This document shows positions 2,868 to 7,306 of a DNA stretch of 52,577 nucleotides, one piece after another. The DNA comes from Caulobacteraceae bacterium (GTDB lineage Bacteria; Pseudomonadota; Alphaproteobacteria; Caulobacterales; Caulobacteraceae). The notes below the pieces were generated by a model. It was not told the origin of the DNA. It worked only from the letters and a program-made list of their open reading frames with translations, and ran no database searches. The position numbers were made by a program, and so were the translations under genes. Within the stretch, counting starts at the first letter, position 1, and every line of letters begins with the position of its first letter. The stretch lies in NCBI GenBank assembly GCA_947452365.1, contig CANGCO010000009.1, positions 1-52,577 of the forward strand, given 5' to 3'.

Positions 2868-3746
2868 TTAGGGGCGATCCAAAAGCCCGGCGTCTTGCAA
2901 CAGCCTAGATTGATCATCGGTCGACGGACGATAAGAGATAAACTCATCAAGCTTGATCGTCTGAAGACCCAACCGCTTGATCAGGTCTCGGTCATAATTG
3001 CCCGACAATATGACAATGCCCTTGGGGCGCAAAACGTCTCGGGCCCCGCCATTGTTTCGAAGACGCTTCATCGAGTCCAGTTGCTGGGCCAAGCCAAGGA
3101 TTTGGGTGCGGCCTATGGGCCGGTTTTGCAGCCGCTCGAACAAGGCCGCCAAACGCTTGGTTGCACCGCCCGCCGACTGGATGGCCATGCGGTCGGCAAG
3201 GCCTAATTCCAGCCAAAAGTTTTTCGGATAGGGATGATCTTTTAAAAGCCACCAAACATTGGTCAGTGACTGTGCCGTCAGGGTCGTCTTCAGGTCCCGG
3301 TTTCTGCCAAGATTGAGATAGTCGTGACGCACCAGGATCAGGCCAAGATCGCAAAGGGCGCTGTTTTCGTTGGACCTTAACAGAAGCGCAATATGGCCAA
3401 AACATTCCTGTGGAATGGTCCAGGCGCGGCCCATCGTGTTTTTGATATCGACCTCGACACCGGCAATATTGAGGTCCAGCACCTGTCCCTTGGGAAATTG
3501 CAGATAATTGCGCAGCAAGATTTCCATCTTGGTGCCGAGATAGGTCTTTTCGGTCTTTTCAATCTCTTCGATCGTAAAACGGTTGGAGCGCGGGGTATCA
3601 ATCACCTCGTCAATGCCCAAGCGAAACAGGTCGGGGACCTTTGATGCAAGGCCCTCCCACCCGCCCGCACGGCGCAATAGGGCATCTACCACGGGCCAAA
3701 GGGCGTCATGGTCTGGGTGATTAACCGGCAAGCGCGCATGCGTCAT
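2868..3746 (-). CDS. NaeI-like type II restriction endonuclease
   Basis: A 292-residue protein resembling the NaeI family. The block EKTEKTYLGTKMEILLR followed by LDLNIAGVEVDIK gives candidate catalytic residues Glu75, Asp91, Asp100 and Lys102. Their spacing (16, 9 and 2) equals that known for NaeI Glu70, Asp86, Asp95 and Lys97. NaeI cleaves GCCGGC, is type IIE and needs a second site; whether this enzyme shares that specificity is inference. The C-terminal half corresponds to the NaeI winged-helix DNA-binding part. It lies 46 bp downstream of the C5 methyltransferase on the same strand, the usual protective arrangement. The stop codon abuts repeat copy A. The gene appears intact. Confidence 0.85.
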   Translation of the reverse strand: MTHARLPVNHPDHDALWPVVDALLRRAGGWEGLASKVPDLFRLGIDEVIDTPRSNRFTIEEIEKTEKTYLGTKMEILLRNYLQFPKGQVLDLNIAGVEVDIKNTMGRAWTIPQECFGHIALLLRSNENSALCDLGLILVRHDYLNLGRNRDLKTTLTAQSLTNVWWLLKDHPYPKNFWLELGLADRMAIQSAGGATKRLAALFERLQNRPIGRTQILGLAQQLDSMKRLRNNGGARDVLRPKGIVILSGNYDRDLIKRLGLQTIKLDEFISYRPSTDDQSRLLQDAGLLDRP

Positions 3747-3792
3747 ACCGGACCATAGGCATCAGGGCCGGTTAAAAAATCCAAAACCTGGA

Positions 3793-4755
3793 CTAGGCAA
3801 AAGCGCGATAAAGTGTGCGTTTTTGCATTGCCGCTGCCAGTTGCGCCGCCACGGCTTGGGCGACGGGCGGCGGAAAAGCATTGCCGACCTGGCGATAGGC
3901 GGCGGTCTTGCGACCATGAAACACCCAAGCATCGTCAAAGCCCTGGATGCGCGCCGCCATACGAACGGTCAGCCTAGGCATGCCGACAAAATCGCGGTCC
4001 GGCGCTTCATCGGCCAAGGTCTTGCCGTTGACGCCCAAGGACGCCCAGGCCAGCTTCGCGCGGGTTGGTCCAAGGTCCGGACCACCATGCTTTTTAGAGC
4101 CGCCAACTAGGGTTGGAGCAATATCATCGGCGCGTGCGGCCCAGGCCTTTGCCCCAAGCCAGCCGCGCGCCGCCATCAAGTCCAACAAGGTCTCACCAAC
4201 CGTTGGCGCATTGACCAAGGACGGGGCTGGCCAGGTAAAATCGTCCTTTAAATCATCCCGAATTGCGACAATGACCACGCGAGGCCGAAGCTGTGGCACC
4301 CCGTAATCAGAGGCGTTTAACAAGCGCCACTGGGCCTCATAGCCAAGCTTTTTCAGCTCACCCCGGATAAAGCCGCGATAATCTTCGAACACGGCCCCCA
4401 AAAAGCCGCGCACATTCTCTATCATTACGGCCTTGGGGCGGGTCTCATCGACCAGACGAATGGCGGCGGGAAAAAGGTTGCGCTCATCGTCCTTACCCAG
4501 CTGTTTTCCCGCCACCGAAAACGGCGGACAGGGAAGCCCGCCGGCCAGAAGGTCAATGCCGCGATAGGCGGACGCGTCAAAAAGGTTCAGGTCTTGCTCA
4601 TGAATCTGCCAGCCCGGGCGGTTTAGGGCCAGGGTCTTGCAGCAATCGGTATCGATCTCGACCACCCCCGCATGATCAAATCCCGCCCGCTCCAAACCCC
4701 GCGCCTGACCCCCGGCCCCGGCGCAAACTTCCAGCGATGTTAGACTTGTGGCCAC
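3793..4755 (-). CDS. C5-cytosine DNA methyltransferase of the restriction-modification module
   Basis: About 320 residues with the ordered C5-methyltransferase motifs: motif I EVCAGAGG (residues 9-16, SAM binding), motif IV GLPCPPFS with the nucleophile Cys76, motif VI ENV (113-115), motif VIII QLRPRVVIVA, and C-terminal motifs IX/X ending YRQVGNAFPPPVA. It should methylate the same site that the neighbouring endonuclease cuts. The reading frame continues upstream to a GTG at 4920 inside repeat copy B, but the conserved domain begins only at 4755, GGAA precedes that GTG, and a promoter-like pair (TTGCGG, 18 bp, TATACT at 4826-4797) lies between, so I choose 4755. A longer form from the repeat remains possible. 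Confidence 0.88.
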   Translation of the reverse strand: MATSLTSLEVCAGAGGQARGLERAGFDHAGVVEIDTDCCKTLALNRPGWQIHEQDLNLFDASAYRGIDLLAGGLPCPPFSVAGKQLGKDDERNLFPAAIRLVDETRPKAVMIENVRGFLGAVFEDYRGFIRGELKKLGYEAQWRLLNASDYGVPQLRPRVVIVAIRDDLKDDFTWPAPSLVNAPTVGETLLDLMAARGWLGAKAWAARADDIAPTLVGGSKKHGGPDLGPTRAKLAWASLGVNGKTLADEAPDRDFVGMPRLTVRMAARIQGFDDAWVFHGRKTAAYRQVGNAFPPPVAQAVAAQLAAAMQKRTLYRAFA

Positions 4756-4796
4756 GTTCGCGATTCCAAGACTTCGTTCAAGAACATTTAGTGAAC

Positions 4797-4826
4797 AGTA
4801 TAAGCGTGTTTGCGCAGTGGCCGCAA
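4797..4826 (-). promoter_or_regulatory. candidate promoter of the methyltransferase gene
   Basis: Minus-strand TTGCGG (4826-4821) and TATACT (4802-4797) are spaced 18 bp. Transcription would start near 4790, about 35 nt before GTG 4755. Just downstream lies GTTC-TT-GAAC (4784-4775) next to another GTTC, which could serve autoregulation. Predicted by eye only. Confidence 0.4.
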
Positions 4827-4875
4827 GACCAGAGGAGGTGGTTTTTTGAGGCAAGTCACGGGCAGGGCAAACGCT

Positions 4876-4982
4876 GCACCCGACGCGGTCCGACATCACG
4901 CAGGACTGTTTTTCAGCCACTAACGCCAGAGGGGCCCGGCCCGCAGGAATTATCTGGGGTGGCGGCGGGCGGGTTTCAAGGG
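4876..4982. repeat. 107-bp direct repeat, copy B (flanks restriction-modification module)
   Basis: Second copy of the block at 2760-2866, offset exactly 2,116 bp with no gaps and three substitutions. It includes the same minus-strand TTGAAA/GATAAT pair (4979-4949) and the same GTG-led frame whose translation starts MAEKQSCVMSDRVGC. Here that frame runs into the methyltransferase; in copy A it runs into the leader of the zf-TFIIB gene. Beyond 4982 the sequence no longer matches. Confidence 0.93.
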
Positions 4983-5172
4983 CGGCGGCGCAGTCTAGCC
5001 GCGCGCACGCCTAAAACAAAAGGCGGGAATTAAACTACTCATAAATATCAATAATTTGATATAGGCTGCATTGTAAAAATTTCACGCAAAAGGCGAAATT
5101 TATATTGACTCCAGATTGTATAAAATAAATTCTCCCTCATGGGTAAATTGTCCCAGTTTATGGAGAAACGTC

Positions 5173-5541
5173 ATGTCTAACCTCTATGCCGAATTTGAAG
5201 CCGACAAGGCCGCAGTTGCCGATGCGGGCTTTTGTTCGCTTTGGCCAACTGCAGTGCCAATTCTTACGACCTTGGCAGGCCTGATCTCCAACCCGATTGC
5301 TAAGTTTGCCATCAAAACAGTCATTGCGGCCGGAAATACCTATTGCGACAGTTCCGTTTCCCTGACCTCGCAAGCCACAGAGCGGCTAAGCAAGGCCGGT
5401 CTGGAGGGTTTCGACAATCTTTCACCGGCTCAGCTTGATGCCCTCGAGGGCATGAGCGACAGCGAGCTCCACACGCTGGCCAAGTATCAAAAAGCAGTTA
5501 ATGGCGTTCCCCCCCAAGACTTTGGCCACAATTTTTTCTAA
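5173..5541 (+). CDS. 122-residue candidate precursor peptide of a RiPP-like cassette
   Basis: A 122-residue protein that I do not recognise. ATG 5173 follows GGAG at 5162-5165; an in-frame ATG at 5116 lacks a ribosome site. Layout: an acidic amphipathic N-terminus (1-20), Cys21, a long hydrophobic Gly/Ala/Ile segment (about 24-53) like that of membrane-active peptides, Cys58 in GNTYCDSS, a Ser/Thr-rich stretch, then a charged helical C-terminus (80-110) and the tail NGVPPQDFGHNFF. There is no standard signal peptide or double-Gly site. It heads a tight operon with a haem-oxygenase-fold enzyme and a radical SAM enzyme, so it may be their substrate. It could instead be an unrelated small membrane protein. 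About 140 bp of AT-rich leader precede it. Confidence 0.6.
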   Translation: MSNLYAEFEADKAAVADAGFCSLWPTAVPILTTLAGLISNPIAKFAIKTVIAAGNTYCDSSVSLTSQATERLSKAGLEGFDNLSPAQLDALEGMSDSELHTLAKYQKAVNGVPPQDFGHNFF

Positions 5542-5552
5542 ATTTAGCCATT

Positions 5553-6257
5553 ATGCTGTTCGCTCATAATGGCGATGCTCTTGGCTCGGCTGCGGAATCC
5601 ATTACGCCATGGGTGGGGTCCGCAGCCAGTCTAGGGCTTCGCGCAAAACTGTCCCTCTGTTGGCCAGATAACAGCCCGCCGTTCCGGCCTAGGAGCCTTA
5701 AGCGATATATCCGCTATCTGCACCTGATGCATGATGTCATACGCGCCAGTATTCCCTTGATGGAACTGGCCCTGACCCGGTGCGATGACCAGACCGAGCA
5801 GGGCGCGCGGCTAGCGGACTATTATCGCCACCATATTGTCGAGGAAAGCGGCCATGTCGAACTGGTGCTTGAGGACCTAGACGAGCTTGGGGTTTCTAAT
5901 GCCCAGGCCTTGGCCCGCATTCCCGACCTGACCATAGTGGCCATGACCGGTTCGCAATATTACTGGTTGGAGCATGTCTCACCCCTGCCCCTGCTCGGCT
6001 ATATTGCCTTTCTTGAGGGACGGCCGCCGACCTCTGAAACCCTAGACGCGGTCAAGGCGATCTTGCCCGAGGGATCAAAGGCCTATCGCGCCTTGGCGGT
6101 CCATGCCGAGGCCGATCCCCACCATAGCCGAGAAATGGACGCCCTCCTCGACGGCCTTAACCTGACCCACGAACAGGCCAGCTTGATTGGGGCCAGCGCC
6201 ATACAATCGGCGCGCCTGAGCTTGGAGGCCTTTATCGCGATGAACGCAAATCCATGA
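5553..6257 (+). CDS. haem-oxygenase-fold diiron enzyme (iron-containing redox enzyme family)
   Basis: A 234-residue, mostly helical protein of the Haem_oxygenas_2 type. The blocks HHIVEESGHVELVLEDLD and HAEADPHHSREMDALLD are typical and supply likely iron ligands Glu98 and His101, Glu155 (in FLEG), and His184, Asp188, His191. The E-x2-H, E, H-x3-D-x2-H layout resembles that known from haem-oxygenase-like diiron oxidases such as UndA and CADD, which oxidise amino acids or fatty acids with O2. PqqC of PQQ synthesis shares the fold. The gene begins 11 nt after the small peptide gene, with no clear ribosome site, and its stop overlaps the radical SAM start by ATGA, so translation is probably coupled. 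The substrate is unknown; the peptide is the obvious candidate. Confidence 0.8.
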   Translation: MLFAHNGDALGSAAESITPWVGSAASLGLRAKLSLCWPDNSPPFRPRSLKRYIRYLHLMHDVIRASIPLMELALTRCDDQTEQGARLADYYRHHIVEESGHVELVLEDLDELGVSNAQALARIPDLTIVAMTGSQYYWLEHVSPLPLLGYIAFLEGRPPTSETLDAVKAILPEGSKAYRALAVHAEADPHHSREMDALLDGLNLTHEQASLIGASAIQSARLSLEAFIAMNANP

Positions 6258-7306
6258 GCGCCGCGCCACCAGACCGTATTCAAGGCCATTACGCCACTTT
6301 TCGCGGCATATTGAGCCTTTATCTGACCAATCAGTGCAACCTGACCTGTGATCACTGCGGCACAGGCAGTGGTCCGAAGATGAAGACAGCCTTGGCCATA
6401 AATTCCGAACTGGAGGCTCAGATCCGGCGCGCCATCCAATCAGGCGGCATCAAGGCCATCCATCTTAGCGGCGGTGAGCCGTTTTTGCGTCGTCGCGATC
6501 TGGTGACCCTATCGACCCTCGCCCAGGAAGAGAAGGTGCCCTTGGCGGTCAATACCAACGGCTATTGGGCGTTTTCGGTCGCGCGCGGTGAAGCGGTCTT
6601 AAACACCCTTCCTGGCCTGTCCCATATCCTGCTGAGCACCGATATTTATCACGCGCGCGAATTGCCGATTGAGCGGGTAGTCGATGCGGCGCAGGCCGCG
6701 CTTCTGTGCGAACGTCAGGTGGAAATCGGCACTGTCACCCCCTTTGGACGGGCCGATGCGTTTACTGAGCGACTGGACGCGCTTTTGCGCGCACGGGGGC
6801 TCTTGGACCGGGTCAATCGGGTGATGAGCGTGCTGGACAAGGCCGACCGACCCGTCCCGCTGGATGAGTCCCTGCTCTCGCCTTGGGTAACGGGGCCCGA
6901 CCCGCGCCCCTGCGCGCTTGTTAACCGCCCCACGATCTTGGAAAATCGCTCCGTCCTGGCCTGTTGTAACACCACCATTGCAAGCCAGGTGGCCCAAGGC
7001 CCACTGATCCTTGGCCATGTCGATCAGACCCCGCTCGACCAGATTCTTTCCCACGACAAGATCGACCCGCTGATTCAGGCCCTGAGGGTGGCCGGGCCAG
7101 CCTTTTTGGCGAGCTTTTTGGGACAGAAGGGCGAAGATCTGTTGAACGCCCCCTATCGCCAAGGCGATATTTGCGGCGTCTGCGTTGCCGTAATGGGCGA
7201 TCCAGAACGGGTCAGTCGCGCGCGGGCGCAGCTTGCCGACCACCCCCATAGCCGGGCCATCGCCATGGCTTTTGAATTGACCACAGGCCGCCCGCAACTC
7301 CCCTAA
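6254..7306 (+). CDS. radical SAM protein with Cys-rich C-terminus
   Basis: A 350-residue enzyme with the radical SAM cluster motif CNLTCDHC (Cys28, Cys32, Cys35), the SAM-binding HLSGGEP block near residue 75 and NTNGYW further on. The C-terminal third has extra cysteines: one in RPCALVN, a CC pair in VLACCNTT, and CGVC in the last 50 residues. This suggests an auxiliary iron-sulfur cluster as in SPASM or twitch proteins that modify peptides, though the spacing is not canonical SPASM. It overlaps the diiron enzyme gene by ATGA and ends within TAATG where the polA frame opens. With the upstream peptide gene it makes a peptide / haem-oxygenase-fold / radical SAM set that resembles the PqqA/PqqC/PqqE toolkit. 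Confidence 0.85.
   Translation: MSAAPPDRIQGHYATFRGILSLYLTNQCNLTCDHCGTGSGPKMKTALAINSELEAQIRRAIQSGGIKAIHLSGGEPFLRRRDLVTLSTLAQEEKVPLAVNTNGYWAFSVARGEAVLNTLPGLSHILLSTDIYHARELPIERVVDAAQAALLCERQVEIGTVTPFGRADAFTERLDALLRARGLLDRVNRVMSVLDKADRPVPLDESLLSPWVTGPDPRPCALVNRPTILENRSVLACCNTTIASQVAQGPLILGHVDQTPLDQILSHDKIDPLIQALRVAGPAFLASFLGQKGEDLLNAPYRQGDICGVCVAVMGDPERVSRARAQLADHPHSRAIAMAFELTTGRPQLP

Follow-up and report, generated by a model that had tools for sequence, protein, structure and literature searches.

The 52,577-nucleotide contig analysed here (the window; contig C9 in a Caulobacteraceae assembly with a size of 2.59 Mb and a completeness of 97.75%) carries a three-gene cassette at positions 5173-7306, all on the plus strand, coding in order for a small peptide, a haem-oxygenase-like diiron oxidase (HDO) and a radical S-adenosylmethionine (SAM) enzyme (Table 1). 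The cassette is very probably a biosynthetic pathway for a ribosomally synthesised and post-translationally modified peptide (RiPP), a reading that rests on the pairing of related HDOs with peptides sharing a leader-like block and on the RiPP enzymes that partner them in relatives. The conserved unit is the peptide and the HDO, while the radical SAM enzyme is a lineage-specific partner. The peptide is highly likely to be the substrate of the cassette enzymes, and a pathway in which both the HDO and the radical SAM enzyme act on its core is probable. An initial annotation had proposed a candidate RiPP cassette of these three genes by comparison with pyrroloquinoline quinone (PQQ) synthesis; the gene set stands, with the conserved unit now narrowed to peptide and HDO, and the PQQ comparison does not. 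The tight packing it described is borne out, as are frames and coordinates, with a gap of 11 nt between the peptide and HDO genes, an ATGA overlap of the HDO and radical SAM genes at 6254-6257, and a 'ggag' at 5162-5165 upstream of the peptide ATG. Its statement that no named pathway has this exact set also holds among the Pfam and NCBIfam models matched by the three proteins, none of which names the set.

Table 1. Features of the cassette in the window
Feature	Coordinates	Strand	Remarks
Candidate RiPP precursor peptide	5173..5541	+	122 aa; top match of a peptide profile built without Caulobacteraceae sequences
Leader-like block, peptide residues 68-104	5374..5484	+	Sub-threshold NF045560 stretch; 57% identity with L003 peptide a
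Variable tail, candidate core, residues 105-122, ending Phe-Phe	5485..5538	+	28% identity (5/18) with L003 peptide a
HDO, 234 aa	5553..6257	+	PF14518; ligands E98, H101, E155, H184, D188, H191
Radical SAM enzyme, EpeE/YydG-related, 350 aa	6254..7306	+	PF04055; five conserved C-terminal Cys

Pairing of the oxidases with leader-block peptides

The window peptide has no match in Pfam at E ≤ 1, and to this extent its initial description as unrecognised is correct. Its leader-like block nevertheless resembles the NCBIfam model NF045560, 'aroma_sacti_dom' (21 bits, cut-off 30; E 2.9e-4), and the cut-off is passed by the similar block of the peptide at locus L046 (33.2 bits) but not by that of the window peptide. 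The initial annotation had allowed that the peptide might prove to belong to a known unrelated family; it instead resembles a precursor family. A full-text literature search found no paper on the NF045560 domain name.

Homologues of the HDO were collected from overlapping genome samples of the phylum (34 of 398 genomes at E ≤ 1e-6), the class (18 of 385 at 1e-12), the order (4 of 220 at 1e-25) and the families of genomes G733 (4 of 161) and G722 (33 of 157, both at 1e-20). Scores in the G722 family are bimodal: 14 genomes hold 16 genes with E < 1e-62, a further two genes fall between 1e-32 and 1e-38, and the remainder lie at about 1e-21 to 1e-23. The high-score group, the HDOs of the four G733-family genomes and those of a Sinorhizobium fredii plasmid (L045), the window and a sister Caulobacteraceae metagenome-assembled genome (MAG; L003) make up a branch of 23 HDOs, drawn from the window, the sister, the Sinorhizobium plasmid and 18 Pseudomonadota genomes; addition of the two intermediates (L128 and L129) brings it to 25. 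The HDO gene of L124 is flagged for a stop inside the matched stretch. Fourteen low-scoring HDOs, chosen by score, served as outgroup, with L058 dropped from the second tree. The branch is split from the outgroup with 100/99 support, with long branches flagged, and as the group labels mix lineage with partner type, the groups show lineage structure more than partner swaps. Genome family f162 would be Rhizobiaceae, given that L112 is nearly identical to the Sinorhizobium locus.

A nine-sequence peptide hidden Markov model (HMM) matched 24 of 2236 small open reading frames (ORFs) in the 23 loci at E < 1e-6, all of them beside a branch HDO, the next ORF scoring only E 2.4; none of the 23 branch HDOs is without a leader-block peptide within about 240 nt. 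Because nine of the 24 matches were seeds of that HMM, one built from six peptides from outside the Caulobacteraceae is the cleaner test; among the ORFs of window and sister locus, 635 in all, it ranked the window peptide first (E 1.4e-4), L003 peptide a second (E 0.0053) and L003 peptide b third, not significantly (E 2.2). With a larger non-Caulobacteraceae profile the window peptide was also first in its whole genome (E 0.0011; next 0.10). The only other match listed for that profile, C20:1647-1769 (E 0.104), lies in a helix-turn-helix-like protein and was rejected as a second precursor. The leader-block peptides of the relatives are 56-72 aa long and lack the N-terminal segment of the window peptide, which is long and hydrophobic. 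At L116 and L119 the peptide-HDO units occur in tandem. The two deeper HDOs, L128 and L129, adjoin a different, NHLP-like peptide, which at L128 scores below the NF038399 cut-off (25 vs 40 bits). Three further weak HDO matches in the order sample (E about 1e-26) have no leader-block peptide among the nearby ORFs as inspected by eye only, and a Salinivibrio match to the L046 peptide falls within a type VI adaptor gene and was taken as chance.

The partner enzymes differ by lineage: an EpeE-like radical SAM enzyme in the window, YcaO and TfuA in the Rhizobiaceae-like loci, and a papain-type peptidase and/or a B12 radical SAM enzyme elsewhere. YcaO and TfuA domains are encoded beside the peptide in L045 and L113, where the HDO gene is divergent, and L112 and L114 are alike by ORF sequence; neither domain was found among the genes around the window cassette. 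Locus L046 comprises peptide and HDO, the only neighbour identified being a cyclase/TPR regulator. Among the 14 loci of genome family f178, scans identified a papain-family peptidase in L047 and L120 and, in L120, a match to TIGR03975, the RiPP radical SAM C-methyltransferase (a B12 radical SAM enzyme; 653 bits). By resemblance of ORF starts, similar peptidases are encoded in L115, L117, L118, L119, L122 and L125, and TIGR03975-like proteins in L115, L116, L118, L119 and L122. Neither occurs in the range viewed at L121, L123, L126 and L127, and L124 has at most a fragment. TIGR03975 also adjoins the intermediate HDO of L128; together, L128 (the locus scanned) and L129 present another HDO-RiPP combination, of an NHLP-like peptide with a TIGR03975-type radical SAM enzyme. 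Loci L047 and L115-L127 further contain an ORF of about 2,000 aa beside the peptide-HDO unit, mostly divergent and shortened in L122. The one scanned, of L116, codes for a Reg_prop hybrid histidine kinase with receiver and Hpt domains, which may sense the product.

The outgroup-type HDOs were treated as a separate branch, and at L055, L056, L059, L060, L068 and L071 they belong to a recurrent AMP-ligase/HDO/SDR gene set, an HDO cluster of another kind. Among ten class-sample loci viewed by eye, AMP-ligase-like and short-chain dehydrogenase/reductase (SDR)-like ORFs were seen at L059, L060, L062, L068 and L071, an AMP-ligase-like ORF at L066, and neither type at L058, while L061, L063 and L069 were ambiguous. 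In the gammaproteobacterial plasmid loci L055 and L056 an AMP-ligase/HDO/SDR set is preceded by a gene annotated as thermostable hemolysin.

That the window HDO and radical SAM enzyme make a small molecule, with the peptide serving as carrier, regulator or toxin-like protein, is improbable. The annotated HDO homologues of L055 and L056, in small-molecule clusters of AMP-ligase/SDR type, and the hydrophobic N-terminal segment of the window peptide would fit such a pathway, but the partners in relatives are RiPP enzymes and this segment is missing from L003 peptide b as well as from the 56-72-aa peptides.

Predicted modifications of the peptide

The window HDO is the sole PF14518 match in its genome (35 vs cut-off 28.9 bits) and, in a profile alignment to MboA, retains the complete set of three histidine and three carboxylate ligands, in agreement with the initial assignment of a haem-oxygenase-fold enzyme with diiron ligands; it is a putative dimetal, O2-activating enzyme. 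The six ligand positions are invariant in 25/25 branch members and 14/14 outgroup HDOs. Y90, H94 and H141 are likewise found in 25/25 branch members; in the outgroup these positions are mostly Ala, Tyr and Arg, respectively. Built from 21 of the 25 branch HDOs, a profile matched the structures 3dde (uncharacterised; E 3.4e-19), MboA (E 3.4e-4) and AetD (E 6e-4). The MboA residues Glu86, His89, Glu143, His172 and Asp176 are spaced as E98, H101, E155, H184 and D188 of the window HDO (E-x2-H, +54 E, +29 H, +4 D), but its last His (181) lies two residues further on than H191, and Tyr82, four residues before the first ligand and proposed as base (PMC13185094), falls by spacing at the branch H94. 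The substrates of MboA (mangotoxin) and AetD are a tripeptide and a free amino acid, respectively, whereas that of the window HDO would be a ribosomal peptide. In MboA, Fe1 is ligated by the C-terminal carboxylate of Leu-Ala-Arg, and the same ligation is stated for AetD, UndA, HrmI and PolF (PMC13185094).

The last residue is L, F, I or V in all 24 leader-block peptides, which have 22 distinct tails, compared with 19% of 177 ORFs of at least 200 aa, a background that overstates the significance because the 24 peptides are related. The tails share little but this hydrophobic end, with Gly at -4 in 16/24, and the start-stop junctions are mostly TAATG or TGATG, leaving the last codon unconstrained. 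Since all these peptides end alike and the solved HDOs bind the substrate carboxylate at iron 1, the HDO is proposed to act on the C-terminal residue, a proposal we regard as evenly balanced. The product of 5173-5541 would be the precursor, with residues 68-104 for enzyme recognition followed by a core of about 18 residues, and the HDO would be the ancestral partner of this leader-block precursor type. It would bind the free C-terminal carboxylate at iron 1 of the diiron site, activate O2 and oxidise the hydrophobic residue at the C-terminus, which is Phe in the window peptide; the reaction would begin with abstraction of a Cbeta-H and end in desaturation or oxidative decarboxylation.

Alternatively, the HDO of a RiPP pathway might desaturate or oxidise an internal core side chain, with the hydrophobic C-terminus as a binding or processing feature only. 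This is the less likely course, as the tails have little else in common and no common internal Arg is present among those listed. It has a precedent in VarO, which probably acts on an internal Arg and whose gene, when mutated, leaves the strain without dehydro-Arg thiovarsolins (PMC6511847), and the peptides of the intermediate HDOs L128 and L129 end in Thr, contrary to the C-terminal rule. Besides these two observations and the relatedness of the 24 peptides, several others weigh against C-terminal action or the RiPP pathway as a whole. Of 13 proteins encoded upstream of outgroup HDOs, six have F, L, I, V, M, W or Y as their last residue too; the window peptide remains under the NF045560 cut-off; no peptidase or exporter was recognised adjoining the window cassette; and AlphaFold2 models of the HDO and the radical SAM enzyme, from two-sequence alignments, have a mean pLDDT of only 39.9 each. 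Synonymous divergence (pS) between the window and L003 is 0.69 for the peptide and 0.21 and 0.26 for the enzymes, so that the window peptide and L003 peptide a may not be orthologues.

The radical SAM enzyme matches PF04055 above cut-off, with the CX3CX2C motif at C28/C32/C35. The extra C-terminal cysteines noted initially were confirmed as C220, C237, C238, C307 and C310. They are conserved without exception in an alignment of five relatives, of which three share no more than 23-26% identity with the window protein. Its best NCBIfam model is TIGR04078 (YydG/EpeE), at 50.3 bits well under the cut-off of 300, and its nearest match in the Protein Data Bank is EpeE (E 1.7e-10). A profile of five sequences can be aligned with EpeE over two stretches, one in the core and one covering the C-terminal CC...CxxC region; the alignment starts after C220, which lies near the position of EpeE Cys223. 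EpeE contains two Fe-S clusters, and Cys223 is its proposed catalytic residue (PMC8326336). The likeness to the epipeptide pathway (EpeX/EpeE, formerly YydF/YydG) extends to these two regions, but the precursor is unlike, an HDO is present in the window cassette and the TIGR04078 score is below cut-off. The EpeE-like enzyme would add a second modification to the core, for which Calpha epimerisation is the leading, if tentative, candidate.

Formation of a crosslink such as a thioether, in place of a D-residue, is a somewhat more doubtful role for the enzyme. It would draw on the 'sacti' of the NF045560 name, on Cys 21 and Cys 58, which are common to the window peptide and L003 peptide a, and on the Cys near the C-terminus of both L003 peptides. 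However, the window tail is without Cys, L003 peptide b lacks the N-terminal Cys pair and the nearest characterised relative of the enzyme is an epimerase.

A PQQ-like or viperin-like pathway is extremely improbable. Generic radical SAM similarity gives matches to the PqqE structure (E 6.4e-9) and to PADLOC pVip (33.8 bits), but EpeE scores far higher. The absence of PqqD, noted initially for the neighbourhood, extends to the whole 97.75% complete genome (the control was positive in 3 of 14 genomes), and membership of the PQQ pathway was rejected. Prokaryotic viperin was likewise rejected at 36.3 bits against the NF038283 cut-off of 180. No PqqA or PqqC model is among the NCBIfam matches of the window peptide and HDO at E ≤ 1. 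PqqC is a cofactorless enzyme, unlike the HDO with its full diiron ligands. With PqqD missing, these ligands complete and the radical SAM enzyme nearest to EpeE rather than PqqE, the PQQ-type chemistry initially suggested is not upheld.

In a family sample of 149 genomes the radical SAM enzyme has two matches at E < 1e-200 (its own genome and sister G065) and one weak match (G041, E 5e-12), and a search of the contigs of close relatives gave L003 and one distant match. The L003 enzyme, the only close homologue found (88-89%), adjoins both other cassette genes, so the alternative raised initially, of homologues occurring without the peptide or the diiron gene, is not what is seen. There is no general link of the radical SAM branch to HDOs, since no PF14518 was found in the three Pfam-scanned neighbours each of the distant (23-26% identical) homologues in Klebsiella (L007) and Streptomyces (L008). 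The former, on plasmid pmk4 of Klebsiella sp. PL-2018, is YydG-like (79.6 bits) and has as neighbours an SdpI-family gene and genes for a methyltransferase, an acyltransferase of the toxin-activating type, HlyD and an ABC transporter with a peptidase domain, an arrangement that looks bacteriocin-type. The latter, also YydG-like and on a plasmid of Streptomyces canus, follows a 229-aa protein with a weak NHLP-related match (TIGR04509, 18.8 vs 34 bits). At L006, in another genome of the family, where the homologue is 26% identical, a 99-aa ORF upstream (L006:2665-2964, minus strand) resembles a RiPP-type peptide by eye.

Sister locus and the polA-side site

In the sister MAG, locus L003 comprises two peptide genes (a, 3568-3939; b, 4203-4439) followed by the HDO and radical SAM genes, just before polA. 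Its HDO is 88% and its radical SAM enzyme 89% identical to those of the window. Peptide a is 56% identical to the window peptide (68/122), with 57-63% identity outside the divergent tail, while peptide b shows 50% identity over 70 aligned residues and is without the N-terminal Cys-containing module. The ratio of nonsynonymous to synonymous substitution (dN/dS) of the peptide is 0.19 between window and L003, giving no sign of positive selection.

Within the set of genomes searched, the complete triad was found in the window genome and this one sister MAG alone (L053/G065 is evidently the same 6,646-base contig as L003). The whole cassette is missing from the polA-side site in three genus-mates (G001, G023 and G048), and this, together with the same gene order in L003, argues that the juxtaposition of the three genes is not chance. 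The cassette is flanked in the window by a restriction-modification (R-M) module and by genes for a Zn-ribbon protein, an ABC ATPase and PolA. The R-M neighbour and polA side reported initially are real, the module at 2868-4920 coding for a NaeI-type restriction endonuclease (PF09126) and a C5-cytosine methylase. At the polA-side site the window has both cassette and R-M module, L003 the cassette only, G001 the methylase (85% identical) without the cassette, and G023 and G048 neither; G036 and G057, which gave no polA match, were left out of this comparison. A functional linkage of module and cassette was ruled out, each having been gained or lost independently across G001, L003, G023 and G048, and the spot beside polA is one where both come and go in this genus.

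Viral oxidases, precedents and significance

The HDO profile also matched 13 contigs (L143-L155) of the IMG/VR collection, which from their source and neighbouring genes look like phage. As the scan selects by EExxH and H..P...GY motifs, the conservation of E98, H101 (12/13), H141, P144, G149 and Y150 is partly built in; outside these motifs H94, Y137, E155, H184, D188 and H191 are kept in 13/13, which supports placing the viral HDOs in the same branch. In the tree they group with the cellular HDOs of the branch, apart from the outgroup, at 100/100 support. The HDO of L145 passes the PF14518 cut-off, while those of L150 and L155 fall below it. Two phage HDO queries found no match at E ≤ 1e-5 among 50,697 phage records, and three phage HDOs had none in PHROG.

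The viral HDO genes sit in what look like phage structural gene blocks. In 12 of the 13 contigs the protein encoded immediately upstream has F or Y as its last residue, and in the remaining one L; the three such proteins scanned all match phrog_6121, a virion structural protein. Eight named-phage records have a related structural protein; those of the five examined, where no HDO was detectable nearby, terminate in P, K, A, K and S, a contrast that is suggestive only, because the proteins have different C-terminal domains. In two near-identical viral contigs without an HDO the related protein ends in L. It is conceivable, though somewhat doubtful, that the branch is a general protein C-terminus-modifying enzyme, acting on neighbour-encoded RiPP precursors and phage virion proteins alike.

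One precedent is the thiovarsolin pathway (VarA, VarY, VarT and VarO), in which a haem-oxygenase-like protein is needed for RiPP modification (PMC6511847). The HDO relatives of L045, L112, L113 and L114 also lie beside YcaO and TfuA, but the window cassette has a radical SAM enzyme, no YcaO or TfuA and another precursor type, and VarO is likened by description only. VarO is the only ribosomal-peptide example cited in the available part of a 2026 review of HDOs (PMC13108848). TfuA-YcaO clusters with a haem-oxygenase-like gene were noted in Sinorhizobium in 2021 (PMC8120280) and are probably the same kind of locus as L045; the peptide-HDO family, the C-terminal rule and the radical SAM variant are not described in the available part of that account. 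The literature found, which covers few subscription journals and so gives a weak absence, holds no description of the HDO-peptide family, the C-terminal rule or the phage branch.

The HDO family is expanding quickly, and one entire branch of it appears here to be devoted to ribosomal peptides, its partners varying by lineage. The hydrophobic free C-terminus would provide a simple sequence rule predicting the site of modification. If the phage branch alters virion proteins likewise, phages would possess a new type of protein chemistry, in which a diiron enzyme modifies the C-terminus of a virion protein, and the maturation of natural products and that of virus particles would be joined through a single enzyme family whose chemistry spans the two.

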